From: a virus
Virus record (IMG/VR): IMGVR_UViG_3300042691_007255
Location: 1-43,876 of that record
Length of the DNA: 43,876 bases
Reading direction: 5' to 3' (one strand)
Shown here: in pieces, positions 5,948 to 36,489 of the stretch
Position numbering within the stretch: the first letter of the stretch is position 1
Layout of the letters: the number at the start of each line of letters is the position of its first letter
Notes under the pieces: model-generated
What the model saw: the letters and a program-made list of their open reading frames with translations, nothing else
What the model was told of the DNA's origin: nothing
Databases searched by the model: none
Program-made: the position numbers and the translations under genes

Positions 5948-7336
5948 ATGAACATTATTAAGATACAAGACCAATTAAGAGGTGTTCCTGATAATACATT
6001 AGTAGGCTACGTTCAAAATCCTACAGGCCAAGTACCTACTTACTTAGCTTTAAGTGAACTGCAACGCAGAAAAGAAATGCGTTCTAAATATCAAGCAGCA
6101 AAACCTGAAGAAAAAACTGTAGCTGAAGATTTAGTACAAGAGACACAACCAGGTGTTATGGGATTGCCTGCGGGTCAACCTATGCAAGAAGCAATGCAAC
6201 CTCCTCCAGAAATGCCTATGGAACAAATGGCACAAGGTGGTTTAGCTGAGTTAGACGTAGGCAACATGTATGATGAAAATAATTATGCTAATGGCGGTAT
6301 TGTTGCGTTTGCTGACGGCGGTGATACATCTATTCCTTGGTACAAACATATGAAACTATTTGGTACTGACTATAGTTTAGTTCCTCCATCCCCTGATGAA
6401 ATAAGAGCATTACAAGATAAAGTAAGTCCTAATCCTTTTTTAGGTGGCATGCCTGAAACTAATAGTTCTTATGTTCCTTACAGTATCGCGGAAAAACCTG
6501 CGACAAAAACAGAAGCTAAACCTGCAGTTAAACCAGAAACTAAACCTAAAGCTGAGGCTAAAAAAGAAACTAAAGCTCCAGCATCTACAGGCAGTGTATA
6601 TAATTTAGAAAAAGTTAAAGGCATCGGTGACTATGCTAAAGAGCTTCAAGACTATATTGGCCCTGACGAAGGACGTAAAGCACTTAACGAAAGAATTGCT
6701 AAGATGGATGCACGTGCGGCTAAGATGGAAGAACAAGCTCCATGGCTAGCATTAGCTCAAGCTGGGTTTAAAATGGCAAGTCAAAGACCTGAATACGGTA
6801 AAGGCCAAAGTGCACTTGCAGATATTTCAGAAGGCGCTGGAGTTGGTTTCAAAGCTTACACTGAATCTCAAGATAAGATAGCGTCATTAGAAGAAAAACG
6901 ATTTAACTTATTAGCTGATTTATCTAAAGCAGATCGTGCAGAAAAAGTTGCAGTTGCTAAGTATGGTGCTGACAGCAAGCAAGCTGTTGAAGAACGTAAC
7001 TTTAAGCGTAAACTACAAGAGCAACATGATAGAGTACAGATGCAAATGAACGACGCAGATAATGCCGCAGCTCTTGCTAAAGCTATGCTTGCAAATAGAT
7101 TAGATCAAAAAGATGTACTAAAATATAAAAACGATTATAGATCTAACCACCCAGAATATTTAGCATGGCAGAAAAAAGTCATTGACGATAAAGGTAAGAA
7201 TGTAGTCAATACTAAAGAATTTAAAGATGCTTCTGATGCGTTGTTAAATCAATTAATCACAAGAGACCTTAATCAAACAAAAGGTACAGCGTCTTCATCT
7301 ATGATTGATACTTCTCAGTGGAGTTTAGCAAGCTAG
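5948..7336 (+). CDS. Virion protein with N-terminal LRGVPDNTL motif, probable ejection protein
   Basis: 462 residues. The N-terminal 60 residues (IQDQLRGVPDNTLVGYVQNP, then YLALSELQRRKEMR) form a conserved head found at the start of several phage internal proteins. The middle is Pro/Glu/Lys-rich low complexity (about 175-215), suggesting a flexible linker. Residues 240-420 are strongly helical and charged. The phrase ANGGIVAFADGG resembles the IAFAKGG motif of the protein at 3067-4431, so the two may share a small binding element. No lysozyme or transglycosylase motif was found. It directly precedes the giant protein, and the two may be ejected together. Confidence 0.5.
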   Translation: MNIIKIQDQLRGVPDNTLVGYVQNPTGQVPTYLALSELQRRKEMRSKYQAAKPEEKTVAEDLVQETQPGVMGLPAGQPMQEAMQPPPEMPMEQMAQGGLAELDVGNMYDENNYANGGIVAFADGGDTSIPWYKHMKLFGTDYSLVPPSPDEIRALQDKVSPNPFLGGMPETNSSYVPYSIAEKPATKTEAKPAVKPETKPKAEAKKETKAPASTGSVYNLEKVKGIGDYAKELQDYIGPDEGRKALNERIAKMDARAAKMEEQAPWLALAQAGFKMASQRPEYGKGQSALADISEGAGVGFKAYTESQDKIASLEEKRFNLLADLSKADRAEKVAVAKYGADSKQAVEERNFKRKLQEQHDRVQMQMNDADNAAALAKAMLANRLDQKDVLKYKNDYRSNHPEYLAWQKKVIDDKGKNVVNTKEFKDASDALLNQLITRDLNQTKGTASSSMIDTSQWSLAS

Positions 7337-12406: not shown

Positions 12407-12607
12407 CTAATTTAGTCGCCATGCCCTGACACCTAGGCATCCATCCTTTTGAGTGACGTAAGCTTTTACTTTTACCCCCGCACGTTTACCCCCTGACTCG
12501 ATTGCATAAATCATAGGCGAAGGCTTCAAGGTGGGGATAAAAAAACTATCCCCAATATCCATATTCTCAAAGGGAAATACCCATTCTGGTTCGTTAAGCT
12601 GACTCAG
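12407..12607 (-). CDS. Small conserved phage protein (IGDSFFIPT family), probable CTG start
   Basis: A 66-residue protein. The conserved part reads WVFPFENMDIGDSFFIPT, then GVKVKAYVTQKDGCLGVRAW. I recall this pattern from many small phage proteins of unknown role near replication genes. There is no ATG, GTG or TTG before the conserved part. The only initiator candidate after the in-frame stop at 12620-12622 is CTG at 12605-12607, which has AAAGGAG 6 bases upstream. The first in-frame ATG (inside NMDIG) would delete the conserved N-terminus. The gene overlaps the end of the primase-helicase by 14 bases. It is last in the minus-strand operon, and its stop touches the stop of the converging plus-strand gene. 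Confidence 0.7.
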   Translation of the reverse strand: MSQLNEPEWVFPFENMDIGDSFFIPTLKPSPMIYAIESGGKRAGVKVKAYVTQKDGCLGVRAWRLN

Positions 12608-15437
12608 GTTGTACTCCTTTTAATAACTCTGTTATTTTAGGTAAGGTTGCCATATTAAGTTTATACGCACTTGTACCTGACTTACTGAAGTCTTTCCATC
12701 CTGCATTCATACGTTTCTTTTCTTGGCTAATTTCAATATTAGACATCTTCATTTGATATAAGAACTCTTTCTTACTTACTGACATCTCGTTCAAATACTT
12801 ATCAAACTCGGTTTTAGAAATCCACATTGTGTCGCTATCGTTTTCTACGCGGATAACAAATGCCATACGCGGTTCCATCATAATTTTATTATCTGCAAAT
12901 GCTAGGATACCTGATTGGTTTTTATTGATGTAATCAGATAACACAGACTCATAATCAACGCTATTAACTTTAACTACGTGGTCTTTGATTGCGATCATTT
13001 CGCCTACAATGATTCTATAGATTCTTTCTAAATCAAACTCAGTAATCTTAGCTTCATTTGCAATCTCACCTGCAGTCATTGAAGCAGCTACTAGGTTCTC
13101 ATAAAATCGATATGATGTATCATCACCAAAGTCTTTTTTGAAGCGTAGGCACCAACGGTCGATCATTTCGCTAACACCTTGTTCGCCTGTTCTATAAACA
13201 GCTTTGACAAACTCTGGCCCTGCCCATCCGTAGTTAAATCTAAATGAATCAAATATCTCACGACCTAGCGCAGCGTCATCTCTAAATACACTTGGTTTTC
13301 TAATTGTCATTTCGATTAACCGTGCTACCTCTCCGTTAGGATCTTTCTTTAACGTGGTTAACTTATCGTACAAAGAATGATTCGATGTAAAGATTGCAAC
13401 TAAACTTGCTGACATCTCGTGATCTCTTTCTGCATTCACTGACGCTTGCATACGGATCTTAGATTTACCTTGTGAAATCTTGTGGATTAACTGAGATAAT
13501 GTTTTAGGTAGTATATTACCCACCTCGTCAAGACCAAATGGGATATTGTGTAGACCTAAGTATCTACCTGTCATACCATTTTCTGTTGCGTCTAACACAG
13601 ATAAATCCTTAGGATTGCCCCATATACTTAGTGCGCTATATAAGGCACCTGTCTTCGCTGCACCTGATTCCCCCGTTAAACAAATTGTCACACCTGATGT
13701 TGATGTGTAATCCATCAAAGCTGAACCAAACCCTGCCAACATTGTAAATGCATGTAGTTCTAGGCTTGGTTTATTAAGTTTATTCGCTGCAATTTTCCAA
13801 TCTTCGTATGTACCTGCAGGTGTTAAGTGTTTAGCAATACCCTTGCATAGTGGAGAAGTAGGAGAAGATATATCCTCAAATTTCCTTGTATACTCGATAC
13901 CGCCTATCACAAAAGACTCTCTATTAAGAGTCCAACCCATCTGCATTCTCATTACTTCTGCTGAACTTTTGTTCATGAGGTATTGACCCCATTTAATTAT
14001 GTAATTCATAAGATAACCTACTTCCTTATTTCCTGGATTAAATAACACGCCGTTACTAGCAATGACCTCTTTAAATCTTTCTACTGCATACACATGCTTA
14101 AGTGGTAACAAGAATTCTCTTTCAGGATCGTTGGGTAACATGGCTTTCATAAGTAAGCATTCGCCATCAGCGACACTAAAAATTCTTTTGGTAGGGTAAA
14201 CATCATAAAGCGAAACAACGATAGGCTCTTTTGGTATAGGAGCGCCATCAGAGTCGTACTCCATAGGAGGAAGATAATAAATACCTCCATTCTTACCATA
14301 TACAAAAGGTTGTAATTCTTGTGGTAGACCATTTAACCTTGTCATAGACTTAGAGGTTATAGGGTCTTGGATTTCTTGTAGCACTGTTTCTTCTACAGGT
14401 TGTGCGGTCTGTAGTTCTTTCCCTAATGCTAAAGGATTAGTAATTTTGCCTCGATGTGGACATCCATCACAACCGCCTGGATTAACATTGTTAAATGTAT
14501 CACAAGAGTGGGGCATATTTTGAGTAGCTTGAGCTTTTCTAATCGTGGCTTCTCTGTTATATCCTGGATGCTCTTCTGACATCATGTGGATCGCTGTATC
14601 ACGATCAGAACAATGTTGTGCAATAGATAGACCAGAATACCAAATAGGTTCCGATAGAGTCTTCGCATTCTCTAAGATAAACTTAATTTGATTACAGCCT
14701 TTACCTTGTAAAGACTTAATAGCAATATCAGAAAACTTAGATTGGAAATTATCCAACTTCATCATCTTACGTTGATCTTCACTAAGTCCTGTCTTAGGTA
14801 ACGATGCAATTAATTGGTCATGCGAATGTGCTACTTCACCTAAAAAGTTTTTAAACTCGTCAAATGAATATACTGGGATATCACTGCCAATTAATTTAGT
14901 AGGGATTGGTGGATCGGTCTTTTGATTAAATGTGTCAGGACAACGTAGAATCCTAGCTAGATCTGCTGTAACTACAGGATCGATGTTAAGACCATGTGTT
15001 AAACAAAAGTTTTTAAACTTCTCCGCATAAGGTTTCCACTCGGTTGCAGGCACATCTTTATCAAACAACCAATAGGCATGAACACCGCCACCTGAATCTA
15101 TTTTAACTGGAGGCGGTAATTCGTTATCTAAAATAAATTTATCGATGGCATCAAGAGCTTCTTCTTTAGAGTTATACCCTTTGCCTTCGCCAACATCTAA
15201 ATCTACAAAGAAAGATTTAACTGCCTTAGCTTCCTCTGCCTTACGACTATAACCATTGAATGAACTAAGTGCTACAAAAATATTAGTCTTCGTATTCTTC
15301 TTAGATTCAACAAATGATTCTAACTCATCTATGTTTTCTACAAACTTATGTCTTGTAACTTTGACAACCGGATCTATTGTAGCTATACAATACACGCCAG
15401 TTGATGGTAATGCTTTTTTATAAAATTCTCTAATCAT
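12594..15437 (-). CDS. Primase-helicase: N-terminal PrimPol-like domain plus DUF927-type helicase
   Basis: 947 residues. An archaeo-eukaryotic primase-like part spans about residues 1-200: FFVDLDVGEG gives the catalytic pair D79/D81, and SGGGVHAYW (115-123) holds the conserved His, then ARILRCPDTFN. A Cys cluster (C312, C323, C326 with H328) follows and probably binds zinc. The C-terminal half is a DUF927-like superfamily 3-type ATPase with Walker A GESGAAKT (589-596), Walker B-like GLDEV (D637, E638) and IFTSN as the sensor strand. Alanine at 594 replaces the usual glycine before Lys. The protein should unwind DNA and make primers at the phage fork with the polymerase at 22253-24118. A palindrome lies in its leader. 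Confidence 0.82.
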   Translation of the reverse strand: MIREFYKKALPSTGVYCIATIDPVVKVTRHKFVENIDELESFVESKKNTKTNIFVALSSFNGYSRKAEEAKAVKSFFVDLDVGEGKGYNSKEEALDAIDKFILDNELPPPVKIDSGGGVHAYWLFDKDVPATEWKPYAEKFKNFCLTHGLNIDPVVTADLARILRCPDTFNQKTDPPIPTKLIGSDIPVYSFDEFKNFLGEVAHSHDQLIASLPKTGLSEDQRKMMKLDNFQSKFSDIAIKSLQGKGCNQIKFILENAKTLSEPIWYSGLSIAQHCSDRDTAIHMMSEEHPGYNREATIRKAQATQNMPHSCDTFNNVNPGGCDGCPHRGKITNPLALGKELQTAQPVEETVLQEIQDPITSKSMTRLNGLPQELQPFVYGKNGGIYYLPPMEYDSDGAPIPKEPIVVSLYDVYPTKRIFSVADGECLLMKAMLPNDPEREFLLPLKHVYAVERFKEVIASNGVLFNPGNKEVGYLMNYIIKWGQYLMNKSSAEVMRMQMGWTLNRESFVIGGIEYTRKFEDISSPTSPLCKGIAKHLTPAGTYEDWKIAANKLNKPSLELHAFTMLAGFGSALMDYTSTSGVTICLTGESGAAKTGALYSALSIWGNPKDLSVLDATENGMTGRYLGLHNIPFGLDEVGNILPKTLSQLIHKISQGKSKIRMQASVNAERDHEMSASLVAIFTSNHSLYDKLTTLKKDPNGEVARLIEMTIRKPSVFRDDAALGREIFDSFRFNYGWAGPEFVKAVYRTGEQGVSEMIDRWCLRFKKDFGDDTSYRFYENLVAASMTAGEIANEAKITEFDLERIYRIIVGEMIAIKDHVVKVNSVDYESVLSDYINKNQSGILAFADNKIMMEPRMAFVIRVENDSDTMWISKTEFDKYLNEMSVSKKEFLYQMKMSNIEISQEKKRMNAGWKDFSKSGTSAYKLNMATLPKITELLKGVQPESA

Positions 15438-15534: not shown

Positions 15535-15846
15535 TTATATCTTGTCGATAACTTTAGTATCAATAAATTTTTTAGCATCAACTAATGACATAGCAGGTAA
15601 TGCGCCGATGTCAAGATCTGCCTTTACTAAATCAATAAACTTAAGTATCTTTTCATAATTTTTTTCTCTTACGTATTGACCTCTGAACCAACTATGTATA
15701 GACATTCTAGACACATCAAAGGCCTTTGCAACGTAGGAGGTAGGTAGGTTTGCTTTTACACAAACCTTACCCAGTTGTACTCCGATTCTTGTTGGATCTG
15801 CTTTATTTAAATCTAATAAGAATCTTTCGCTGTATGGTCTCGCCAT
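15535..15846 (-). CDS. Small HTH DNA-binding regulator
   Basis: 103 residues with a strong ribosome site (AAGGAG, 6 bases before ATG). Residues about 18-55 have a helix-turn-helix of the XRE/Cro type: GKVCVKANLPTSYVAKAFD, then VSRMSIHSWFRGQYV, where the Ser/His/Trp helix would read DNA. The C-terminal half is a helical hydrophobic/acidic region that may dimerise. It lies between the ssDNA-binding-like gene and the primase-helicase, with a GTACA/TGTAC palindrome just downstream, so autoregulation or control of replication genes is plausible but inferred. A host-transcription or DnaA-like role cannot be excluded. Confidence 0.65.
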   Translation of the reverse strand: MARPYSERFLLDLNKADPTRIGVQLGKVCVKANLPTSYVAKAFDVSRMSIHSWFRGQYVREKNYEKILKFIDLVKADLDIGALPAMSLVDAKKFIDTKVIDKI

Positions 15847-16749: not shown

Positions 16750-17187
16750 TTATTTACTTGTTGGTTTTCTTACTACAACACTATATTCTCGAACTGAGTT
16801 AATACCTGGTGGTAATCCCTCGCCTTCTCGACTTGCCATATGCTCTTTAAAATTGCCGTTGTGAATTCTTTGTTGCAGTAATTCAAGTGCATTATGTTCA
16901 ATGATGTATGATTTGAACTCATCCCAATTTGTGCAAGAGAATTGTTCTTTGATTGTCTTAGTGATAGTGCCACTATTTGTTCTAACACTTTCAGCATTCA
17001 TAGTGTTACATTCATCTAGCATCACTAACTCTAGTTGTTTCATTTCATTTTCTAATTCTTCTCTTTTCATCATATATTGCCTGTACAGATTATCATGCGC
17101 TGTACGTATTGTCAAGTACGCTTTGACTAATTCATCAAGTTTGGGCGCCTCGGTTACAGGTTGATCTATTACTTGTTCTTCACTCAT
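16750..17187 (-). CDS. Conserved phage protein with coiled coil, unknown role
   Basis: 145 residues. Residues about 15-60 are helical and charged (RTAHDNLYRQYMMKREELEN) and probably form a coiled coil. The second half has TITKTIKEQFSCTNWDEFKS, NALELLQQRIHNGNF and PPGINSVREYSVVVRK, an order I recognise from replication or recombination regions of many phages, but without a proven function. The start codon overlaps the stop of the upstream sigma-like gene by 1 base (17187), so translation is probably coupled. A nucleic-acid-binding accessory role is possible; no catalytic motif is visible. Confidence 0.6.
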   Translation of the reverse strand: MSEEQVIDQPVTEAPKLDELVKAYLTIRTAHDNLYRQYMMKREELENEMKQLELVMLDECNTMNAESVRTNSGTITKTIKEQFSCTNWDEFKSYIIEHNALELLQQRIHNGNFKEHMASREGEGLPPGINSVREYSVVVRKPTSK

Positions 17188-17759
17188 TAACGTGCTCCTT
17201 CTAAAAATGGTTTTAATAAACTACTTACGCACGGATGCCTTAATTTTCGTAATGCTACCGCTTCTATTTGTCTTATTCTTTCTCTTGTGACGTCATACTT
17301 TTCAGCTACCTCATCTAATGTAAGCCCTTCTTTGTAACGTAAGTTTAGAACCTTACGATGTTTGTTATCTAATGTACTTAATGCCGCATTCATAACTTCT
17401 TCTAAATCTTTCTTATCAAAGTCTTGTATATATGTGGTTTCTTCACTAGGTAAAAGTGCCATGACTTGTTCTTGCGTCATATCTAATTCTGTAAAATTCT
17501 TTTCTAAAGGTCTTATCTGATCATTACTCCATAGTTCTTCAGGTAATTTACCTAATACATCGCAAAGCTTTTCAGCGGTTAACGATAGCGCGCCTGATCT
17601 AAGAAGTGGTGAGTCAGTCATTTTAATTAAATTGTTTACATACCCATAGTTTAAATTGTTGGCTGTACACCATTTATGACCGGGTTCTCCGCCAGCTTCT
17701 TTAATAGCTTCTAAAATACGATTGTTTCTAACTTTAATAGTGACTTTATAATCATGCAT
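17187..17759 (-). CDS. Transcription factor: N-terminal HTH fused to sigma70 region 4
   Basis: 190 residues. The N-terminal 75 residues resemble an XRE-type HTH: CTANNLNYGYVNNLIKM, then LSLTAEKLCDVLGKLPEEL. The C-terminal part is a textbook sigma70 region 4: STLDNKHRKVLNLRYKEG, LTLDEVAEKYDVTRERIRQI (146-165) and VALRKLRHP, the helix-turn-helix that reads -35 boxes. Sigma region 2, needed for -10 recognition, is absent. It should therefore work with host RNA polymerase as an appropriator or anti-sigma-type switch, possibly for late genes. The start overlaps the SNF2 helicase end by 8 bases. It is the only obvious transcription switch in the window. Confidence 0.8.
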   Translation of the reverse strand: MHDYKVTIKVRNNRILEAIKEAGGEPGHKWCTANNLNYGYVNNLIKMTDSPLLRSGALSLTAEKLCDVLGKLPEELWSNDQIRPLEKNFTELDMTQEQVMALLPSEETTYIQDFDKKDLEEVMNAALSTLDNKHRKVLNLRYKEGLTLDEVAEKYDVTRERIRQIEAVALRKLRHPCVSSLLKPFLEGAR

Positions 17760-19320
17760 CTCCTAACTCCTCTCTATATAAATCAACTAACTTAGTATGC
17801 AAATCTACTTTACCTTGTAGCATGGCATACATTTTCTTCTCTACTTCTGATCCTTGTAAGTGAACTACCGTCATCTTATTCTTTTGTCCTACACGATCCA
17901 TACGTGCAATACATTGTAGGTACGTCTCAACTGACATCACAGGTGACCAAAACACTACGGTATTGGCTGCGGTTAGAGTAACGCCATGTGACGCAGCTTG
18001 TGGTTGAATTACTAAAACTCTAGGTTCTTCCATGTTTTGAAATTGATTGATGATATTAGCACGTTGTGTTGCTGTTACATCACCTTGAATAACTTCGTTA
18101 GTAATATGTTTATCTGTTAAATACCGTGACACAATCTCAATAGTATGTCTGTATGGAACAAAGATAATTACTTTGTAATCTGTTTCGTCAATCACTTCCA
18201 TCAACGCATTGAGACGTGGTTGAATATCAAACTCTAATACTTCTCTACTATCTGTATATACTGCACCGCCAGAGATTTGTAATAACTTATTAAGCCCTGC
18301 TGCAGCGTTGACTGCACTAATCTGTGTACCGGCAGCTTCAATCATCATTTGCTCTTTAAGTAACTTGTAATACTTTTGAACTTGTGGTGATAGTGGTACT
18401 TCTCGTGTTGTATAAAGTACATCAGGTAAGTCTAGACATTCGTCTTTAGCAAAACGAATCGCGGGTTGTAATGCCTTAAATACTTCTACTCTTGCATTAC
18501 TTTTTGGTATCCATTTAAATCTTGTGACTTGATGCATGACTTTGTCACGCCATGCCATAGAGAATTTAGGTACGTTCTGTGGGCAAACAAGTCTTGCCAA
18601 TCCATATGCATCTACAGGTGATTGAGATGCAGGTGTACCTGTTAACATCCATAATCTTGTTTCAGGTTTAAGTATTTTAGCCAGCGTCTTCCAGCGCGCA
18701 GTTGAAGGACTCTTGTATGCGTTAGCTTCATCAATTACAATCAGGTCAAATCCGCCGTTAATGATGTCGTCCTTTACAATAGCTACACCATCATAATTAA
18801 TAACTACAAAGTCATAACCGCCACTAATAATCTTTTGTCTTTTATTAGCAGGGCCGTGGGCTACTGCCACAGATCGATGCATTGCTGTATTCATTACATC
18901 GTTTTGCCAAGCAGAATACATAATAGATAATGGACAGACCACTAAAACTCTTTTGACTTGCTTTTGCTCCATCAAATAATCCGCAGCCCATATGACAGAC
19001 GATGTTTTACCTGTACCTGCTTCGTTAAAACAAAATGCTCTATGATTAATACTTAAGAACTCTGCGGTAGTACGTTGGTGATTAAATGGTTTATATAGCC
19101 CAGGATATTTATAATCTCGTGCAATCGGTGAGGGTAGATTGTTTCGGAACGAAACAAGTTGGTTGAGCCTGGTCATCTCTGGTATACCCCAGAATACAAC
19201 CATGTCTGCTAAGTTGCCACGCCATTCGACAACCTCAGACTTCTCAATGTTTTTAGTAATATGCGGAACAATGTGTTCCGGAACGGTAAATTTTAAAGCA
19301 GTGTTTTGTATTATTTCCAT
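17752..19320 (-). CDS. SNF2-family DEAD/H helicase
   Basis: 522 residues, close to the minimal size of phage SNF2 ATPases. Motif I (Walker A) is NEAGTGKT at 99-106, motif Ia VLVVCPLSIMYSAW, motif II IDEAN (DEAN at 197-200), motif III LTGTP (226-230), and in the C-terminal RecA lobe VLVIQPQAASHGVTLTAAN and QCIARMDRVGQ (motif VI). These ATPases translocate on double-stranded DNA; in phages they are linked to replication restart, recombination or removal of bound proteins. It is the first gene of a sub-operon with its own promoter (19327-19355). No nuclease domain is attached. The function beyond ATP-driven DNA translocation is inferred. Confidence 0.88.
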   Translation of the reverse strand: MEIIQNTALKFTVPEHIVPHITKNIEKSEVVEWRGNLADMVVFWGIPEMTRLNQLVSFRNNLPSPIARDYKYPGLYKPFNHQRTTAEFLSINHRAFCFNEAGTGKTSSVIWAADYLMEQKQVKRVLVVCPLSIMYSAWQNDVMNTAMHRSVAVAHGPANKRQKIISGGYDFVVINYDGVAIVKDDIINGGFDLIVIDEANAYKSPSTARWKTLAKILKPETRLWMLTGTPASQSPVDAYGLARLVCPQNVPKFSMAWRDKVMHQVTRFKWIPKSNARVEVFKALQPAIRFAKDECLDLPDVLYTTREVPLSPQVQKYYKLLKEQMMIEAAGTQISAVNAAAGLNKLLQISGGAVYTDSREVLEFDIQPRLNALMEVIDETDYKVIIFVPYRHTIEIVSRYLTDKHITNEVIQGDVTATQRANIINQFQNMEEPRVLVIQPQAASHGVTLTAANTVVFWSPVMSVETYLQCIARMDRVGQKNKMTVVHLQGSEVEKKMYAMLQGKVDLHTKLVDLYREELGDA

Positions 19321-31441: not shown

Positions 31442-31668
31442 GCTAGTGCCTCCTTTATAAATCCCATGTCTTCTTCTGTCATAACTTCTACTTCATCGTC
31501 CCAAAACTCGTCCTCTACACTTCTATCGTATGTTTCCCAATTGACTTCTTCACCATCGCCTGTCTTGGCTTTCTCTAATGCCCACTCTTTGTTATCTGCC
31601 TCAACTGCGACTGTTACTGTTTCTAACTCGGTTACATACCTTGTGTATTTCACATAAAACTTTTTCAT
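31438..31668 (-). CDS. Conserved small acidic phage protein
   Basis: 76 residues. KKFYVKYTRYVTELETVTVA then VEADNKEWALEKAKTGDG: a beta-rich start and a helix, as in numerous early phage proteins of about this size. The acidic end has EFWDDEVEVMTEEDMGF. The start lies 1 base after the upstream stop, without a clear ribosome site. The function is not known. Confidence 0.55.
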   Translation of the reverse strand: MKKFYVKYTRYVTELETVTVAVEADNKEWALEKAKTGDGEEVNWETYDRSVEDEFWDDEVEVMTEEDMGFIKEALA

Positions 31669-31669
31669 A

Positions 31670-32116
31670 TTATTTCCCCAATTCTCTTTGATTAAATTTC
31701 ACGATGTGATAACCCTCGTATGCACTAAACCCCATGCGTTCTAATACATTGTGAGCCATAGGCGTAAAGTCGTCTTCTTTAGTCATCTCTTCAGACACTC
31801 GGTCAAACTCGGTTTCTAATTCTTTATCACCAAAAAACTCCACACTCTCATAGCTATCCTCTGCCGAATCGGTATAACTATCGCCATCAATGACAAACAC
31901 AATGTCATCTTCTTTCTCTGCGTTCATCATAAATTGGCGAGGGTCTATCCCTGTAAATGCGTGGTGGTATTCCAATGGCACTAAACTATAATCGTCAGTA
32001 ATGCCAATCTCTGCCCACTTCTGTTCACTAAAGACATAAACTTTCTTGCCGTCTTTACTAAACAACTCGGTGTCCCATGATGACCATTTATAAGGTCTGA
32101 TGTATTTTGTTTCCAT
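31670..32116 (-). CDS. Hypothetical acidic phage protein
   Basis: 148 residues, the largest of the promoter-proximal array. YIRPYKWSSWDTELFSKDGK, then KVYVFSEQKWAEIGITDDYS, a DIVFVIDGDSYTDS segment, a long acidic stretch and a final MGFSAYEGYHIVKF. The alternating beta strands suggest a globular domain. No motif points to an activity. AGGAGAGAG precedes ATG. Confidence 0.5.
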   Translation of the reverse strand: METKYIRPYKWSSWDTELFSKDGKKVYVFSEQKWAEIGITDDYSLVPLEYHHAFTGIDPRQFMMNAEKEDDIVFVIDGDSYTDSAEDSYESVEFFGDKELETEFDRVSEEMTKEDDFTPMAHNVLERMGFSAYEGYHIVKFNQRELGK

Positions 32117-32125
32117 GTCTCTCTC

Positions 32126-32362
32126 CTATAATTGATAAAGTTTATATGTGCCTGTGTATTGGCATTGCCACTCGTAGCCACCTCGTTTTGCTAGGTCGTG
32201 GAGGCTTGGTTTAAGGTCAACAGGATAATCGTAGTTAACATACTCAAACGCGTCCATGTTTCCTCTTTCTGATGTTAGGGTCACCATGTTGTCATGCTCG
32301 TTGATATATACATCTAAACCTAGCTTTTGTAATTCTTTTACCATTGTGTTTAGTCTTTTCAT
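32126..32362 (-). CDS. Hypothetical phage protein, first gene of the array
   Basis: 78 residues. KRLNTMVKELQKLGLDVYIN, a beta hairpin (DNMVTLTSERGN) and a Trp/Cys-containing end (GGYEWQCQYTGTYKLY) suggest a small alpha/beta protein. It is the promoter-proximal gene of the array, about 45 bases downstream of the 32411-32439 promoter, so it would be expressed first. AGGAGAAAT precedes ATG. Its early position makes a host-takeover role plausible but unproven. Confidence 0.55.
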   Translation of the reverse strand: MKRLNTMVKELQKLGLDVYINEHDNMVTLTSERGNMDAFEYVNYDYPVDLKPSLHDLAKRGGYEWQCQYTGTYKLYQL

Positions 32363-32410
32363 TTATTTCTCCTAGTTAATAAAGTTTTTGTTCCGTCTTG
32401 CTTAATTATA

Positions 32411-32439
32411 ACTATCCTCGCTTTTTCAAAGTATGTCAA
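32411..32439 (-). promoter_or_regulatory. Sigma70-type promoter for the small-gene array
   Basis: On the minus strand TTGACA (32434-32439), 17 bases, then GATAGT (32411-32416) as the -10; a TATAAT lies just downstream. The -35 is perfect and the -10 matches 4 of 6. Transcription would begin about 45 bases before the ATG at 32362. Because the genes behind it overlap and no terminator is seen until far downstream, this promoter may feed the run to about 24 kb. Confidence 0.65.
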
Positions 32440-32544
32440 CTATTATTTTACTAATTATAATTTAGTGGGGTTTTGGTCTTGGCGAGGGATTTGTCTGTGT
32501 AATACTTGATTGTTTTTGTCGGGTATTACTCGGTTTTTACTTAG

Positions 32545-32911
32545 TGTTCCGTGTTCCAATGTTCTGTTTTTACTAAGTTTACTAATTGATACTTGGAACA
32601 TGGATTTTAGTGAGATTGTGAGAGACTAAGTTATTGATTTATATATATATTATATTTATTATTATTATTATTATTGCTTACTTTTTGTGCAATGTTCCAT
32701 GTTCCAGCGTTTTGACGAGAATGAAAAGGTAAATGTTTCTGAATTGTAAATGCACTGCGAAAAGACCTCTCTTGACCACCAAGTTTCTCAAAATCTTACC
32801 TCGTGTCCTATGTAAAACTTATTGGAACATTGGAACAAACCTTGTTAATCAAGCACTTACCGAAAAAAACTTGGAACACGGAGTGAAACTTGGTTTCTCA
32901 AAATTGGAACA
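32545..32911. repeat. GGAACA/TGTTCC repeat array (iteron-like)
   Basis: Nine exact GGAACA cores occur in 370 bases: TGTTCC on the plus strand at 32545, 32552, 32693 and 32700, and units TTGGAACA at 32593, 32822, 32830, 32871 and 32904. A near copy TGTTCT lies at 32560. Several are tandem doublets 7-8 bases apart (32545/32552, 32693/32700, 32822/32830), and the 12-mer TTGGAACACGGA appears in both orientations (ending at 32559 on the minus strand, and at 32871). Most units extend to TTGGAACAYGG. Chance would give well under one such hexamer in this length. Confidence 0.85.
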
Positions 32912-32947
32912 TGGGAATTTCCCCGTCATGACTCGGTTGACTTGGTT

Positions 32948-32986
32948 AAATGAGCAGAATGCAGAGAGACCAGTTCCCTCCCCTAG
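32948..32986. repeat. Duplicated 39-bp intergenic element, copy A
   Basis: Starts AAATGAGCAGAATGC and contains GAGACCAGTT, ending CCCTAG. It matches copy B (34089-34127) at 33 of 39 positions with no gaps. Each copy is preceded by a GGGAATT(T)CCCC site (here 32913-32924, 35 bases before) and lies a short way downstream of a minus-strand terminator. It is not inside a gene. Confidence 0.8.
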
Positions 32987-33040
32987 TGTCGATCAGTACC
33001 CCTAAATTTATACTTGAGTAAATTACTAGGTTATTGCAAA

Positions 33041-33066
33041 AAGAAAAAGCCCTCCTAAGAGGGCTT
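33041..33066 (-). terminator. Intrinsic terminator after the GP88-like gene
   Basis: AAGCCCTC (33047-33054), loop CTAA, GAGGGCTT (33059-33066): a perfect 8-bp stem. On the minus strand it is followed by TTTTTCTTTTT. It lies 28 bases after the stop of the gene at 33094-33756 and should end that unit. Confidence 0.9.
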
Positions 33067-33093
33067 AGTCTAACTAAGTTAACTAGGTTTAAC

Positions 33094-33756
33094 TTAGTGG
33101 GCAAGGTACGAAACATTTGTAACTTTATTATCCCAGCATGCACGGCATGAACCGCATTTACCTTGTTGCTTAGGCGCTAAGCATTTAAACCCAGTGAGTT
33201 CTTTTTGACTATGTACAGTTGAGGTTAAGACATTGGCATAGCCTTTTAAACTACGTGGTAACTTAGCTGGCTGGTCGATGAACATCGAACTAATACGTAC
33301 AATTAAGTTAACTGGGATTGACTCGGTTTTTAAAAAGTCTTTAACAATGTTGGCTTCTCGTGTAGGCAACCAAAATAAAGTTTTATCTAGTCGTCGGGCA
33401 ACCTGTGCTATTTTAGATAGATGCTCTACGCTTTGAAGATCCCCCGAGTCATGCCAGCGGAAATAGGGCTTATTACCTATTAACTTAACCATAGCATCAA
33501 CCCATAGCGGATTCTTTAATGATTCAAGCCTTTTATACTGTAGAGGCTCGATCGTCTTAGCGAACCTATGATAATTACCTTTTAAGGCATAGCATCCCTC
33601 GCATACTGAACCCTTCACGTTGACAAGTTTAGACCCTGTTATGCATTCCTTAGCCGGTAGGCTATAGGATTCACTAGGCATTTTAGTCGTCTTAGTACAA
33701 CCCCCGCTAATCGCGAGGGCTTCCTTCTTGGTTTTAAATAGTTGGATCGGGATCAT
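33094..33756 (-). CDS. GP88-like phage protein
   Basis: 220 residues. MPSESYSLPAKECITGSKL, KGSVCEGCYALKGNYHRF, FRWHDSGDLQSVEHL, FWLPTREANIV and, at the end, CGSCRACWDNKVTNVSYLAH are the conserved parts of the mycobacteriophage gene product 88 family. The eight or so cysteines fall in two clusters (C20, C38, C52, C55 and four near the C-terminus), suggesting a metal or Fe-S site. I know of no proven activity for the family. It shares a unit with a 65-residue gene behind a Fur-box-like palindrome and ends at a strong terminator. Confidence 0.8.
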   Translation of the reverse strand: MIPIQLFKTKKEALAISGGCTKTTKMPSESYSLPAKECITGSKLVNVKGSVCEGCYALKGNYHRFAKTIEPLQYKRLESLKNPLWVDAMVKLIGNKPYFRWHDSGDLQSVEHLSKIAQVARRLDKTLFWLPTREANIVKDFLKTESIPVNLIVRISSMFIDQPAKLPRSLKGYANVLTSTVHSQKELTGFKCLAPKQQGKCGSCRACWDNKVTNVSYLAH

Positions 33757-33950
33757 TTATTTAGTTTCCTTAGTAGATCGCCAGCTGTCATTCTGTTGAC
33801 GTGGTTATTTAAAATCTTAGTGATCTTGTCTTGATCCTCTTGGGATAGATCAAACACTTCTATTTGCATTGCGGTTTCTAACTCATCGCCATTAACACCG
33901 ATACAAACATTAAGTACATCAAACAAACCTTTTACTTTTATATCTAACAT
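33753..33950 (-). CDS. Small hypothetical protein upstream of GP88-like gene
   Basis: 65 residues from the ATG at 33950, which has AAAGGG upstream. A longer frame starting at 33986 would begin inside the palindrome at 33971-33985 and lacks a ribosome site. The sequence has LDIKVKGLFDVLNVCIGVNG, ELETAMQIEVFDLSQEDQ and KITKILNNHVNRMTAGDLLR, probably a small alpha/beta protein. Its last 4 bases overlap the GP88-like start (ATGA), so the two are probably made together. The function is unrecognised. Confidence 0.6.
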   Translation of the reverse strand: MLDIKVKGLFDVLNVCIGVNGDELETAMQIEVFDLSQEDQDKITKILNNHVNRMTAGDLLRKLNK

Positions 33951-33970
33951 TTTTTTGCCCTTTATGTTAT

Positions 33971-33985
33971 TGAGAATGATTCTCA
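33971..33985. promoter_or_regulatory. Fur-box-like palindrome TGAGAATGATTCTCA
   Basis: A perfect 7-1-7 inverted repeat. It differs from the Fur consensus TGATAATNATTATCA only by one symmetrical substitution (G for T and C for A). On the minus strand it lies immediately after TATAAA (a possible -10) and about 20 bases before the ATG at 33950, the usual place for a repressor operator. Binding by host Fur or a phage repressor with a similar site is inference. Confidence 0.5.
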
Positions 33986-34088
33986 TTTATAAAATGTGTT
34001 ACGTGTTGCTCCAGTTAAAATACCACAACCACGTTAATAGTCAATAGATCTTTACTAATTAAAAGGGAATTCCCCCGCGCAAAAAACA

Positions 34089-34127
34089 AAATGAACAGAA
34101 TGCCGTGAGACCAGTTCTCTACCCTAA
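34089..34127. repeat. Duplicated 39-bp intergenic element, copy B
   Basis: Starts AAATGAACAGAATGC and contains GAGACCAGTTCTC, in which GAGA and TCTC form a small inverted repeat, ending CCCTAA. It is 33/39 identical to copy A (32948-32986). GGGAATTCCCCC (34065-34076) lies 24 bases before. It directly adjoins the U-tract of the 34126-34151 terminator, so it lies just past the end of the ArdC unit. Confidence 0.8.
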
Positions 34128-34151
34128 AAAAGAAAGGCGTCAAAAGACGCC
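34126..34151 (-). terminator. Intrinsic terminator overlapping a stop codon
   Basis: GGCGTC (34136-34141), loop AAAA, GACGCC (34146-34151). On the minus strand it continues as TTTCTTTTTT. The hairpin contains the last codons and TGA stop of the gene at 34140-34337, so translation to the end of that gene could compete with termination. Confidence 0.88.
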
Positions 34152-34337
34152 CTCCGCTTCTAACCTTTTGTTACCCAGTCGAATAAGTTCTTCGAGCTCT
34201 GCCTTGTTAGCAATAAGATAACCGTGTGGTGCCTGGTGTATGTTGAATTGGTACACCGCATAATCAACCGCATGTTCCCTCGATGCGCGTTCACCTAAAC
34301 TCCACACCATGTTCTCAGTTAATGCATAGTAGATCAT
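34140..34337 (-). CDS. Hypothetical small protein of the ArdC unit
   Basis: 65 residues. YALTENMVWSLGERASREHA and VDYAVYQFNIHQAPHGYLIA, then a Lys/Glu-rich helix (KAELEELIRLGNKRLEAEG). It overlaps the upstream stop by 4 bases and ends within the terminator stem. It may act with ArdC against host defence because it is always transcribed with it here, but no homologue is recognised. Confidence 0.55.
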   Translation of the reverse strand: MIYYALTENMVWSLGERASREHAVDYAVYQFNIHQAPHGYLIANKAELEELIRLGNKRLEAEGVF

Positions 34338-34624
34338 ATGCCCTCCCTATTAAATTGTTCTGCTAACTCATGACCGGATATGTTCTTGATCCAGCCCCAG
34401 CCATGCCAGGTGTTAACTCCAGCTCTACCCTTTTCAAGTGTTACCATGTTCTCGCCCCATGATATCTCGAACTGGACGTGGCCTCGACTGAGGCCCCTTT
34501 TAATTGCCTGGATGACTTGGTTCTCACTTGGTTTACGTCCGTCAAAATATTGTTCATACATGGTTGACGATCTGATTGTTACACCTTCTGATACTCGGTT
34601 ACTTGGATAAAAATAATCATTCAT
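34334..34624 (-). CDS. Hypothetical protein of the ArdC unit
   Basis: 96 residues. It contains YFYPSNRVSEGVTIRSS, GRKPSENQVIQAIKRGLSRG and HVQFEISWGENMVTLEKGRA, then a Trp/Gly-rich piece (NTWHGWGWIKNISGHELAEQ). GAGGAG of the upstream gene's last codons is its ribosome site. The Trp/Gly segment could be a small nucleic-acid or carbohydrate-binding surface. The function is not known. Confidence 0.55.
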   Translation of the reverse strand: MNDYFYPSNRVSEGVTIRSSTMYEQYFDGRKPSENQVIQAIKRGLSRGHVQFEISWGENMVTLEKGRAGVNTWHGWGWIKNISGHELAEQFNREGI

Positions 34625-34627
34625 GAT

Positions 34628-34777
34628 CTACTCCTCCTCGGTTAAAGATAAATAAAAATACAAGCTCGATGCAAATACTCCCACTGCTGCAGCTGTTGGT
34701 AATTTAAAAACAAATAATGCGATACCGCTAATTGCTAACATTGCTAAACCTTCAATGAATCTAAGTAATGATCTCAT
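34628..34777 (-). CDS. Small two-helix membrane protein
   Basis: 49 residues. ATG at 34777 has GGAG 5 bases upstream. The product has two hydrophobic segments, LAMLAISGIALFVF and AAAVGVFASSLYFYL, joined by KLPT, with Arg at the start and three Glu at the end. This is a hairpin membrane topology as in small holins or superinfection-exclusion peptides. It fills the 170-base gap between ArdC and the next gene with good ribosome sites on both sides. The role is inferred from topology only. Confidence 0.65.
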   Translation of the reverse strand: MRSLLRFIEGLAMLAISGIALFVFKLPTAAAVGVFASSLYFYLSLTEEE

Positions 34778-34794
34778 AATAACTCCAGGGAGGC

Positions 34795-35634
34795 TTACGC
34801 CTCCTCTGCCTCCTCAGTTTTGATTGTGTAATCTAGAATCTTTTGTGCTAACGCTGAAGCCTTAAGAATATTCTTAGGATCATCGCGTAACACTTTTAGC
34901 CAGTTAGCAATATAACTAGTGTGCTGTAATTGGCCATCTAGTTTTAAATGAGCGCATAACATCGCGCTACCTAACTCTGCAACTAGCTCCTCGAAGGCAT
35001 AAGCCTCGTTACCGAAACGGCCTGAGAAATCTCGATTCAATCGTGACTCGTGACCAGTCCAGTGTGATAACTCATGCAATGCGGTTGAATAATAGTCTGC
35101 ACTTGATTTGAATTGATCGAGTCCAGGTAATTGGATGTAATCCATGGAAGGAACGTAGAATGCGCGGTTACCACCAAACTGAATGCGCGCTCTCTGAGCT
35201 TTGATAAACTCCTCGCATGATGCAATCGTCTCATTCATGTTACGCTCTGCTGGAGCTGGTAACTCCAGGCCGTCAACTTGATCCGCATTAAATACAGTGT
35301 AATGCTTTAACATCGGGATCTTTTTAGCGTCGCCTGTTACCTTGTCAGTAACTTCTAACGGGCTAAAGTATACAACTGGAACGCCAACGGAACCCTTGCG
35401 AACCTGAGCGCCAACTGATTGAGCTTGCTTATATGTTACCCAGTAATCAGTACTTGCTGGCATCATGGATAGCTGTACGAAATTGATACCGTTATAGTAA
35501 CGCTTAGCTACTGGATTATAAGGTGCATCTACTCCGCGATTGTGCCAGGGTTTTACCCAGGGAGCGACACCTGATTCAAGAGACTTGATAACGTTATCGG
35601 TTATCGTCTGCGCTATTGATTGTTTACTATTCAT
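34795..35634 (-). CDS. ArdC-like antirestriction protein
   Basis: 279 residues, typical for ArdC. The N-terminal domain (residues 1-120: VAPWVKPW, YYNGINFVQL, WVTYKQAQSVGAQVRKGS) binds ssDNA in characterised members. The C-terminal zincin domain has HELSH (H187, E188, H191) followed by WTGHESRLNRDF and EELVAELGSAM, a second Glu-rich helix giving a third metal ligand. ArdC proteins are made early and protect incoming DNA from restriction. The gene stands behind a strong promoter and a 6-bp hairpin separates it from the next gene, so high early expression is likely. Confidence 0.88.
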   Translation of the reverse strand: MNSKQSIAQTITDNVIKSLESGVAPWVKPWHNRGVDAPYNPVAKRYYNGINFVQLSMMPASTDYWVTYKQAQSVGAQVRKGSVGVPVVYFSPLEVTDKVTGDAKKIPMLKHYTVFNADQVDGLELPAPAERNMNETIASCEEFIKAQRARIQFGGNRAFYVPSMDYIQLPGLDQFKSSADYYSTALHELSHWTGHESRLNRDFSGRFGNEAYAFEELVAELGSAMLCAHLKLDGQLQHTSYIANWLKVLRDDPKNILKASALAQKILDYTIKTEEAEEA

Positions 35635-36004
35635 ATTTGATACTCCTGTTTAGATAGTTAATTAAATACTGCAGGATCAAGGATACTTAATTAAATTTAA
35701 TATGTCAAGTATTATTTTACAAATAGAATAGAAAAGGCAAAGGCCTCCAGGATCGCAACCCACCCGGGCCCCACCCCCCAAAAATTTTGGAAGGAATTAT
35801 TTTTTATCTTATACACCAAGACTTACACGAACGACTAGATATAAAATGAAATATCGGAACCCACCCCCTAGTAAAAACAAAGAGGCATCAAAAAAATATT
35901 TTGCAAAAAAAGTTGAGAGTTTAGTTAGTAAAGTTTAAGAAATGTTGTGTAGCAAAAGTGCATAGCTACGCCGTAGCTTAGCAAAAACAAAGGAAAGTGC
36001 AAGA
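35635..36004. other. Gene-free region with C-rich tracts and a palindrome
   Basis: This 370-bp gap has no credible gene on either strand. It holds the ArdC promoter, two C-rich patches with shared AACCCACCC (around 35757 and 35859), a run of six C followed by AAAAATTTT, and the perfect palindrome AGCTACG-C-CGTAGCT (35964-35978). The palindrome is flanked by similar phrases, AGCAAAAGTGC before and AGCAAAAACAAAGG after. It may be a protein-binding or packaging-related site, and no U-tract makes it a terminator. The strand asymmetry (C-rich on plus) is visible against an AT-rich background. Confidence 0.5.
35680..35708 (-). promoter_or_regulatory. Sigma70-type promoter for the ArdC unit
   Basis: On the minus strand TTGACA (35703-35708), exactly 17 bases, then TATCCT (35680-35685). 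Transcription would start about 40 bases before the ATG at 35634, which has AGGAG upstream. A perfect -35 in front of an antirestriction gene fits an immediate-early unit read by host polymerase. Confidence 0.72.
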
Positions 36005-36349
36005 CTAAATAGCTTTAGGATCGAAGTTATATAACTCGGAATAGACTGCTTTAATACGTAGGAATTTAGGACCATGTTGATCAAAGTCATTGTCGCCCCG
36101 AACATAGAGAGCTAGATGAACCATTTCATGAAGAAGGGTTTGGAATATTGTGGTGAAATGCCCACAGGCATTAGAACTTATTTGAATTTCCATTTCAACT
36201 TCATCAAAACAACCGTAAATCTCAGGATTCTTAATGACTTTAAATCTAATTTTGGAGGACTTAGGCATTCTAAGTCGATTAAAAGGCGGCATCTTGCATG
36301 CCATGTCGTAGAGATGAGCTAAGTTTGTCGACGTTAACGTGGTTTTCAT
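36005..36349 (-). CDS. SprT-like zinc metalloprotein
   Basis: 114 residues. TTIFQTLLHEMVHLALYV holds HEMVH (H74, E75, H78), and H92 in QHGPKF is the third zinc ligand, in the SprT/Spartan arrangement. The first 60 residues (RFKVIKNPEIYGCFDEVEM) are the short beta part common to phage SprT-like proteins. Cellular SPRTN proteases cut DNA-protein crosslinks; in phages the target is unknown. It is the only gene between the ArdC promoter region and the divergent packaging genes. No ribosome site is obvious. Confidence 0.8.
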   Translation of the reverse strand: MKTTLTSTNLAHLYDMACKMPPFNRLRMPKSSKIRFKVIKNPEIYGCFDEVEMEIQISSNACGHFTTIFQTLLHEMVHLALYVRGDNDFDQHGPKFLRIKAVYSELYNFDPKAI

Positions 36350-36489
36350 TCAAAAAGACCAAGTTAGGATAATGAGTGCAACGTCGGGCTGAGTAAAAAG
36401 TAAGGTTATCATGGTAGTATTTTACCAAAAACTAGGTTAGAATAGCCGAATTAGCTGCAAATAATTTCACAAGGTGTAAACAGCGACAC

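Follow-up and report, generated by a model that had tools for sequence, protein, structure and literature searches.

What does a dense array of short GGAACA repeats do in a non-coding gap of a tailed-phage genome, and which protein would read it? We addressed this question in an IMG/VR record of 43,876 b, analysed over its whole length (the window). The record is without terminal repeats, and its genes point leftward from 12.4 to 36.3 kb and rightward in the remainder. An earlier note on this DNA had described nine exact GGAACA/TGTTCC cores at 32545-32911, in both orientations and often as tandem doublets 7-8 b apart, as a possible replication origin or multi-site operator. We found all nine at these coordinates, with four on the minus strand (32545, 32552, 32693 and 32700) and five on the plus strand (32595, 32824, 32832, 32873 and 32906), and three pairs had the spacing described (32545/32552, 32693/32700 and 32824/32832). 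An additional, tenth core was present at 32389 on the minus strand, and the extended form TTGGAACA could be read at six sites. The array occupies a 731-b gap (32363-33093, 34% GC) between two minus-strand ORFs at 32126-32362 and 33094-33756. The sole ORF crossing it is an unsupported 90-aa plus-strand frame. When the hexamer was counted over the whole genome, the gap held 10 copies of GGAACA compared to 17 in the remaining 43.1 kb, and 8 of the 15 copies of TGGAACA compared to 7 elsewhere. None of 2,000 dinucleotide shuffles of the gap reached the observed count of GGAACA (shuffled mean 0.42, maximum 4), TGGAACA or TTGGAACA, confirming that the array is far above chance.

The gap is organized as a candidate origin cassette. 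Near its left edge is a leftward sigma-70-type promoter candidate, TTGACA-17-GATAGT (32411-32439, minus strand), assigned by consensus match only, with the outlying iteron CGGAACA (32389-32394, minus strand) close downstream of it. Further right come an iteron doublet with a spacing of 7 b (32545-32557, minus strand, exact core match) and a single TTGGAACA (32595-32600, plus strand). The AT-rich tract noticed earlier beside the array proved to be richer in AT than any other 60-b window of the genome (32627-32686); it is kept in relatives and is a candidate unwinding element. Beyond it lie two inner doublets that form a divergent pair, the left half (32693-32705, minus strand) adjoining a conserved TTGCACAAAAA element and the right half (32824-32837, plus strand) 124 b away, followed by TTGGAACA at 32873-32878 (41 b from the doublet) and at 32906-32911, both on the plus strand. 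At the right edge, a predicted intrinsic terminator (33047-33066, minus strand) would stop leftward transcription from the gp88-like gene. A terminator of the form GCCCTC..GAGGGCTTTTT or similar recurs in nearly every close relative scanned, at a distance of 335-430 b from the AT tract, and promoter candidates resembling TTGACA-17-GATAGT occur in most close relatives. The duplicated element that the earlier note had placed next to the array was weak, the best exact case being the 12-mer GTTTCTCAAAAT at 32783-32794 and 32893-32904, 110 b apart within the cassette. Comparison of the gap DNA with known phages revealed no similarity, and an Rfam search gave sub-threshold matches only, on the terminator hairpin.

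The surroundings of the cassette show features of their own. A second motif, ACTNRGTT, is over-represented in the window, mainly at 31626-36438 (43 matches versus 15 expected). It occurs mostly as ACTNGGTT on the plus strand (24 versus 4), clustered around the putative origin, and is enriched in several close relatives and not in distant ones; an invariant 103-aa helix-turn-helix (HTH) protein would be a candidate partner. Two genes near the array are also kept in relatives, encoding an ArdC-like anti-restriction protein with a zincin-like metallopeptidase domain (34795-35634, minus strand) and a SprT-like protein (36005-36349, minus strand).

Relatives were gathered through the gp88-like gene, the ArdC-like gene, the DNA polymerase, the primase-helicase and the doublet, and the full contigs were then analysed. 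Motif classes were defined from k-mer counts, as unsupervised EM motif fitting was unsuccessful on the AT-rich repeats. Some 40 related phage contigs proved to carry an array, in most cases at one shared locus that has the start of the leftward early genes on one side and TerS/TerL on the other. The conservation on which the earlier note had staked the array thus held for its position and failed for its motif. The GGAACA class comprises the window, G002, G007, G011, G020, G021, G042, G048, G060, G070 and others, and a (G)AGAACA class comprises G003, G004, G005, G010, G051, G058 and G082, with CAGAACA in G073. Other contigs carry GGCAACA (G006, G008, G012 and G013), GTTACA (G026 and G027), GGTAACA (G069), GGACACA (G053), TGAAC (G009, G030, G033 and G068), GAACTGG (G064 and G065) or TTGGAAT (G038). 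Motif counts were strongly local, as with GGCAAC in G013 (10/17) and ATTCCA in G038 (11/21). The geometry recurred across several motif classes, since two divergent doublets 104-136 b apart were present by exact match in 26 of 43 arrays, and consecutive same-strand sites, pooled over relatives, favoured spacings of 7-9 and 10-12 b. In 13 of 17 genomes, irrespective of motif, no 60-b window was richer in AT than the AT tract. A detectable array was absent from some relatives that carry the primase-helicase gene. In two TGAAC-class contigs (G030 and G033, L099-type), extra repeat rows about 9 b apart extend beyond the core array, for example at 17585-17779 of G030, giving 20 or more sites altogether.

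Closely related pairs revealed how the motif changes. The alignment of G010 (AGAACA) to G011 and G021 (GGAACA) runs through the array at 85-90%, and most sites have changed jointly. Over G066/G051 and G010/G011/G021 together, the flanks aligned at 82-90% and the AT tract was kept despite many joint site changes. Between G066 and G051 the AT tract was almost identical while five of eight array sites had changed, and both contained mixed (A/G)GAACA sites, suggesting that this step between motifs was gradual. A 462-aa late protein (window 5948-7336, plus strand) is strongly variable among otherwise close phages, with 62% identity between these two. In more distant pairs the scaffold TGCACAAAAAATAAGCA-(TAATAA)n-TATATA was retained and the cores were different. 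A motif that is coherent within an array and specific to a group, at one locus, implies that a sequence-specific protein must co-evolve with it.

The protein that we propose is the 947-aa primase-helicase (12594-15437, minus strand), which has a primase-like N-terminal half, a DUF927 helicase (E=1.7e-20, above the cut-off) and a C-terminal winged-helix-like domain, and which also matched primase and helicase PHROGs. Its C-terminal 508 aa match the SCCmec helicase Cch (5dgk) and SaPIbov1 Rep (8tch) by sequence, and their predicted fold matched the same two structures over full length, about 520 columns (4e-14 and 6e-11, respectively), with nothing else below E=1e-3 in that search. The fold search with the isolated 110-aa C-terminal domain gave no E below 0.1, and its weak entries were dominated by winged-helix DNA-binding domains (HSF and TcpK of pCW3). 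In the model, residues 880-935 form a helix-turn-helix with a two-strand wing, where residue 889 is the first of the second HTH helix and residues 911 and 923 lie in the wing. These three residues co-vary with the motif and fall in the domain proposed to bind the iterons (residues 868-935; 12633-12836, minus strand).

In relatives, differences in motif are accompanied by differences in the C-terminal part of the primase-helicase, a comparison based on about nine lineages with array and gene on one contig. We split eight of them by motif position 2 (G versus C/T) and ranked proteins by within-class minus between-class identity. The HTH part (880-935) gave the largest contrast, 0.137, at rank 1 of 56 label sets; with this number of lineages a rank p cannot fall below 1/56, and the class split was picked with residue 889 already in view. 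This rank held after regression on core identity, and 12 other core proteins or parts ranked between 2 and 41 and showed no contrast above 0.048. Class-splitting columns were concentrated in the same part (11/56 versus 26/873 elsewhere, p=4e-6), as were the differences between the near-isogenic G066 and G051 (10/56 versus 32/893, p=8e-5). Furthermore, the core proteins of G069 are nearest to those of G005 and its HTH is nearest to that of G027, indicating that ancestry does not explain the match between HTH and motif. Residue 889 is K or R if motif position 2 is G, T if it is C or T, and S in the GGACACA class. The distant GGAACA phages G042, G048, G035, G060 and G070 have other residues at these positions, which argues against a universal code, and the rule for residue 889 would at best be a local one. 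The co-variation supports binding of the iterons by the C-terminal domain of the primase-helicase.

The earlier note had named the primase-helicase and two HTH proteins as possible binders, and the comparison of sequences favours the first and rejects the other two as specificity determinants. The recognition helix of the 103-aa HTH protein (15535-15846), VSRMSIHSWFRG, is identical in four motif classes. The 190-aa HTH/sigma-4 protein (17187-17759) is absent at that place in relatives. The latter, encoded on the minus strand, has a sigma-70 region 4 domain and is inserted between two conserved genes; its place in relatives is empty or taken by unrelated ORFs, and a 34% homologue was found elsewhere in G048 only.

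We then compared the locus with known replication systems. Phage lambda encodes an initiator, O, whose iterons in ori lambda lie beside an AT-rich tract; O is not a helicase, and its iterons are longer and lie inside the O gene. Phage P4 has a primase-helicase, the alpha protein, which also recognises iterons; these are short (type I), occur in both orientations and lie at separate places (ori and crr). P4 is a satellite and its iteron sequence differs. A closer likeness is to the SaPI/PICI origins, in which two sets of short iterons flank an AT-rich tract, a layout described as found in no other replicon (PMC6092414). SaPI Rep binds the iterons of its origin through its C-terminal domain, Cch is a DUF927-containing relative of SaPIbov1 Rep, and the C-terminal domain of Cch2 binds short direct repeats (PMC7581432). 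In the window, iterons at 32545-32600 and 32693-32911 likewise lie on either side of the AT tract, the proposed initiator is a SaPIbov1 Rep/Cch-like (DUF927) helicase by profile and predicted fold, and specificity differs between elements in both systems. These likenesses argue against the suggestion that the array represents an undescribed type of origin, since two iteron sets around an AT tract together with such a helicase are known from SaPIs and PICIs (PMC6092414; PMC7581432). The SaPI origin lies directly 3' of the initiator gene, whereas the window array (32389-32911) is 17 kb from it, and the window replicon is a phage rather than a satellite, with its own terminase, portal and structural and late genes. 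For these two reasons we do not file the window origin as a SaPI/PICI member. It further differs in the fusion of primase and helicase in one 947-aa protein and in having seven or more specificities at one locus in a phage family. SCCmec provides the best sequence and fold match, Cch (DUF927), but is a chromosomal cassette with only three iterons, next to the cch2 gene, and its Cch is without a fused primase. In the Vibrio satellites termed PLEs, RepA co-varies with the iterons in its DNA-binding domain and is conserved elsewhere, initiator and iterons have to form a cognate pair, and switching is selected for by a nuclease that targets the origin (PMC8263062). The co-variation of initiator domain and iterons is shared with the window phages; PLEs differ in their RepA_N-type initiator, their three iterons of about 30 b and their status as satellites of ICP1.

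Collectively, these data suggest that the array is the replication origin of the phage, recognised by its own primase-helicase and working like a SaPI/PICI origin, a reading to which we assign a probability of about 0.78. Of the two functions first proposed, the origin is thus well supported by comparison and the operator is less likely, although a double role is conceivable. Copies of the primase-helicase would bind the TGGAACA iterons through the C-terminal winged-helix-like domain, probably as two assemblies, one on each divergent inner doublet. The bound protein would melt the adjacent AT-rich tract and load as a DUF927 (SaPIbov1 Rep/Cch-like) helicase, its N-terminal primase would prime synthesis, and replication would depart from the site in both directions. 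Binding, melting, loading and bidirectional firing are steps that we infer from features read in the DNA, namely the array with its conserved position and geometry, the AT maximum, the terminator at the boundary, the joint switching of sites, the co-variation of domain and motif and the Rep/Cch-like predicted fold.

Strand composition was also examined. The minimum of cumulative GC skew had been predicted at about 32.5 kb and was found at about 35-36 kb instead. Cumulative skew mostly followed gene orientation, indicating that the plain minimum is confounded by transcription. When leftward genes only were considered, GC3 skew dropped from the left to the right side of the array in eight of eight genomes, with gene-permutation p values of 0.008-0.085 per genome; the genes are homologous across genomes, so the eight tests are not independent. 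The change fits a switch of fork direction at the array and provides modest evidence for it.

Among the alternatives, the one that ranks first, though improbable, is an origin with a different iteron-binding protein, either a small phage protein that escaped recognition or a factor of the host, the primase-helicase tip then co-varying as a secondary effect. Many small early genes are without a known family and too variable for the co-variation test, and motif switching could follow a change of host. These genes are patchily shared, however; no conserved protein tested tracks the motif as well as the tip of the primase-helicase does, and the fold of this protein is that of iteron-binding initiators. 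We regard as slightly less probable still an operator, at which a phage or host transcription factor would bind cooperatively and control the leftward early operon starting at 32362. The array does lie upstream of this operon, with the GGAACA site at 32389 just downstream of the promoter candidate at 32439-32411, and repressors with switching operators exist in general. Against this, the main array lies behind the terminator and 100-500 b upstream of the promoter candidate; a position within a segment that the terminator bounds, where the promoter candidate occupies the far edge, makes an operator less likely. In addition, the array surrounds the AT maximum of the genome, and no shared regulator co-varies with it, given the constant helix of the one HTH protein and the absence of the other from its place in relatives. 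A packaging start (pac or cos) bound by the small terminase, encoded 3.6 kb away, would suit a TerS-TerL-portal block less than 8 kb from the array in 28 of 28 contigs in which TerS was found, but is very unlikely, and TerS was rejected as specificity determinant, because G010 (AGAACA) and G021 (GGAACA) have almost identical TerS and different motifs, and a pac site would not be expected to include an AT-maximum tract. Integrase arm-type sites (attP) or a partition locus are equally improbable; short repeats in two orientations occur also in attP and parS regions, but no integrase or partition gene was found among the subset of window ORFs checked against Pfam or PHROGs.

Other phages and genomes were searched as well. 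A search for TerS homologues in phage isolates gave none, and one scan of a genome collection gave a single MAG contig with no clear host. A TGGAACATGGAACA match in prophage L195, beside an integrase-like ORF after tRNAs, was judged unrelated. Isolate homologues of the primase-helicase are distant, with 25% identity in Pseudomonas phage Rollin (95% of the query) and 23% in Rhizobium phages. In Rhizobium phage RHph_TM3_14A the AT maximum lies in a non-coding gap in which no clear array was seen. For Pelagibacter phage HTVC027P and phage DSL-LC04 (TerL 51-53%), the annotated primase is a different one, and an equivalent is not obvious. A blind scan of the 61-kb genome of Rollin (OR577172) revealed TTGCAT/ATGCAA as its strongest local repeat, with 8 of 18 genome copies at 261-678. 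The AT maximum of this genome, at 519-578, again terminates in AATAATAATAAT and has three of the sites on either side of it, arranged in rows of 22 and 9 b; no gene is annotated in the stretch. This array (L599 261-678) is a probable origin of a cultured phage and lends the layout independent support.

A PICI-type layout is seen here in tailed phages of a widespread group that has no close cultured member in the phage collection searched, and a likely origin can be named for phages known only from metagenomes. A wider scenario is possible, although we think it more doubtful than not. Ordinary tailed phages would carry SaPI/PICI-style origins split from the initiator gene, in seven or more mutually incompatible specificity groups. 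Concerted iteron replacement, matched by a few residues at the tip of the primase-helicase, would result from the pressure of parasites, defence nucleases or competing phages exploiting the origin, in the way that Odn exploits that of PLEs. Selection by parasites or competitors behind the motif switching is in itself plausible. At one locus, a nearly constant scaffold carries seven or more iteron sequences and a short protein domain changes along with them. This forms a natural data set for an old question, the joint switch of specificity by an initiator and its dozen scattered sites, which becomes directly testable. For assays of binding and of replication the system offers cognate as well as non-cognate pairs, and Rollin is available as a cultured distant relative for bench work.
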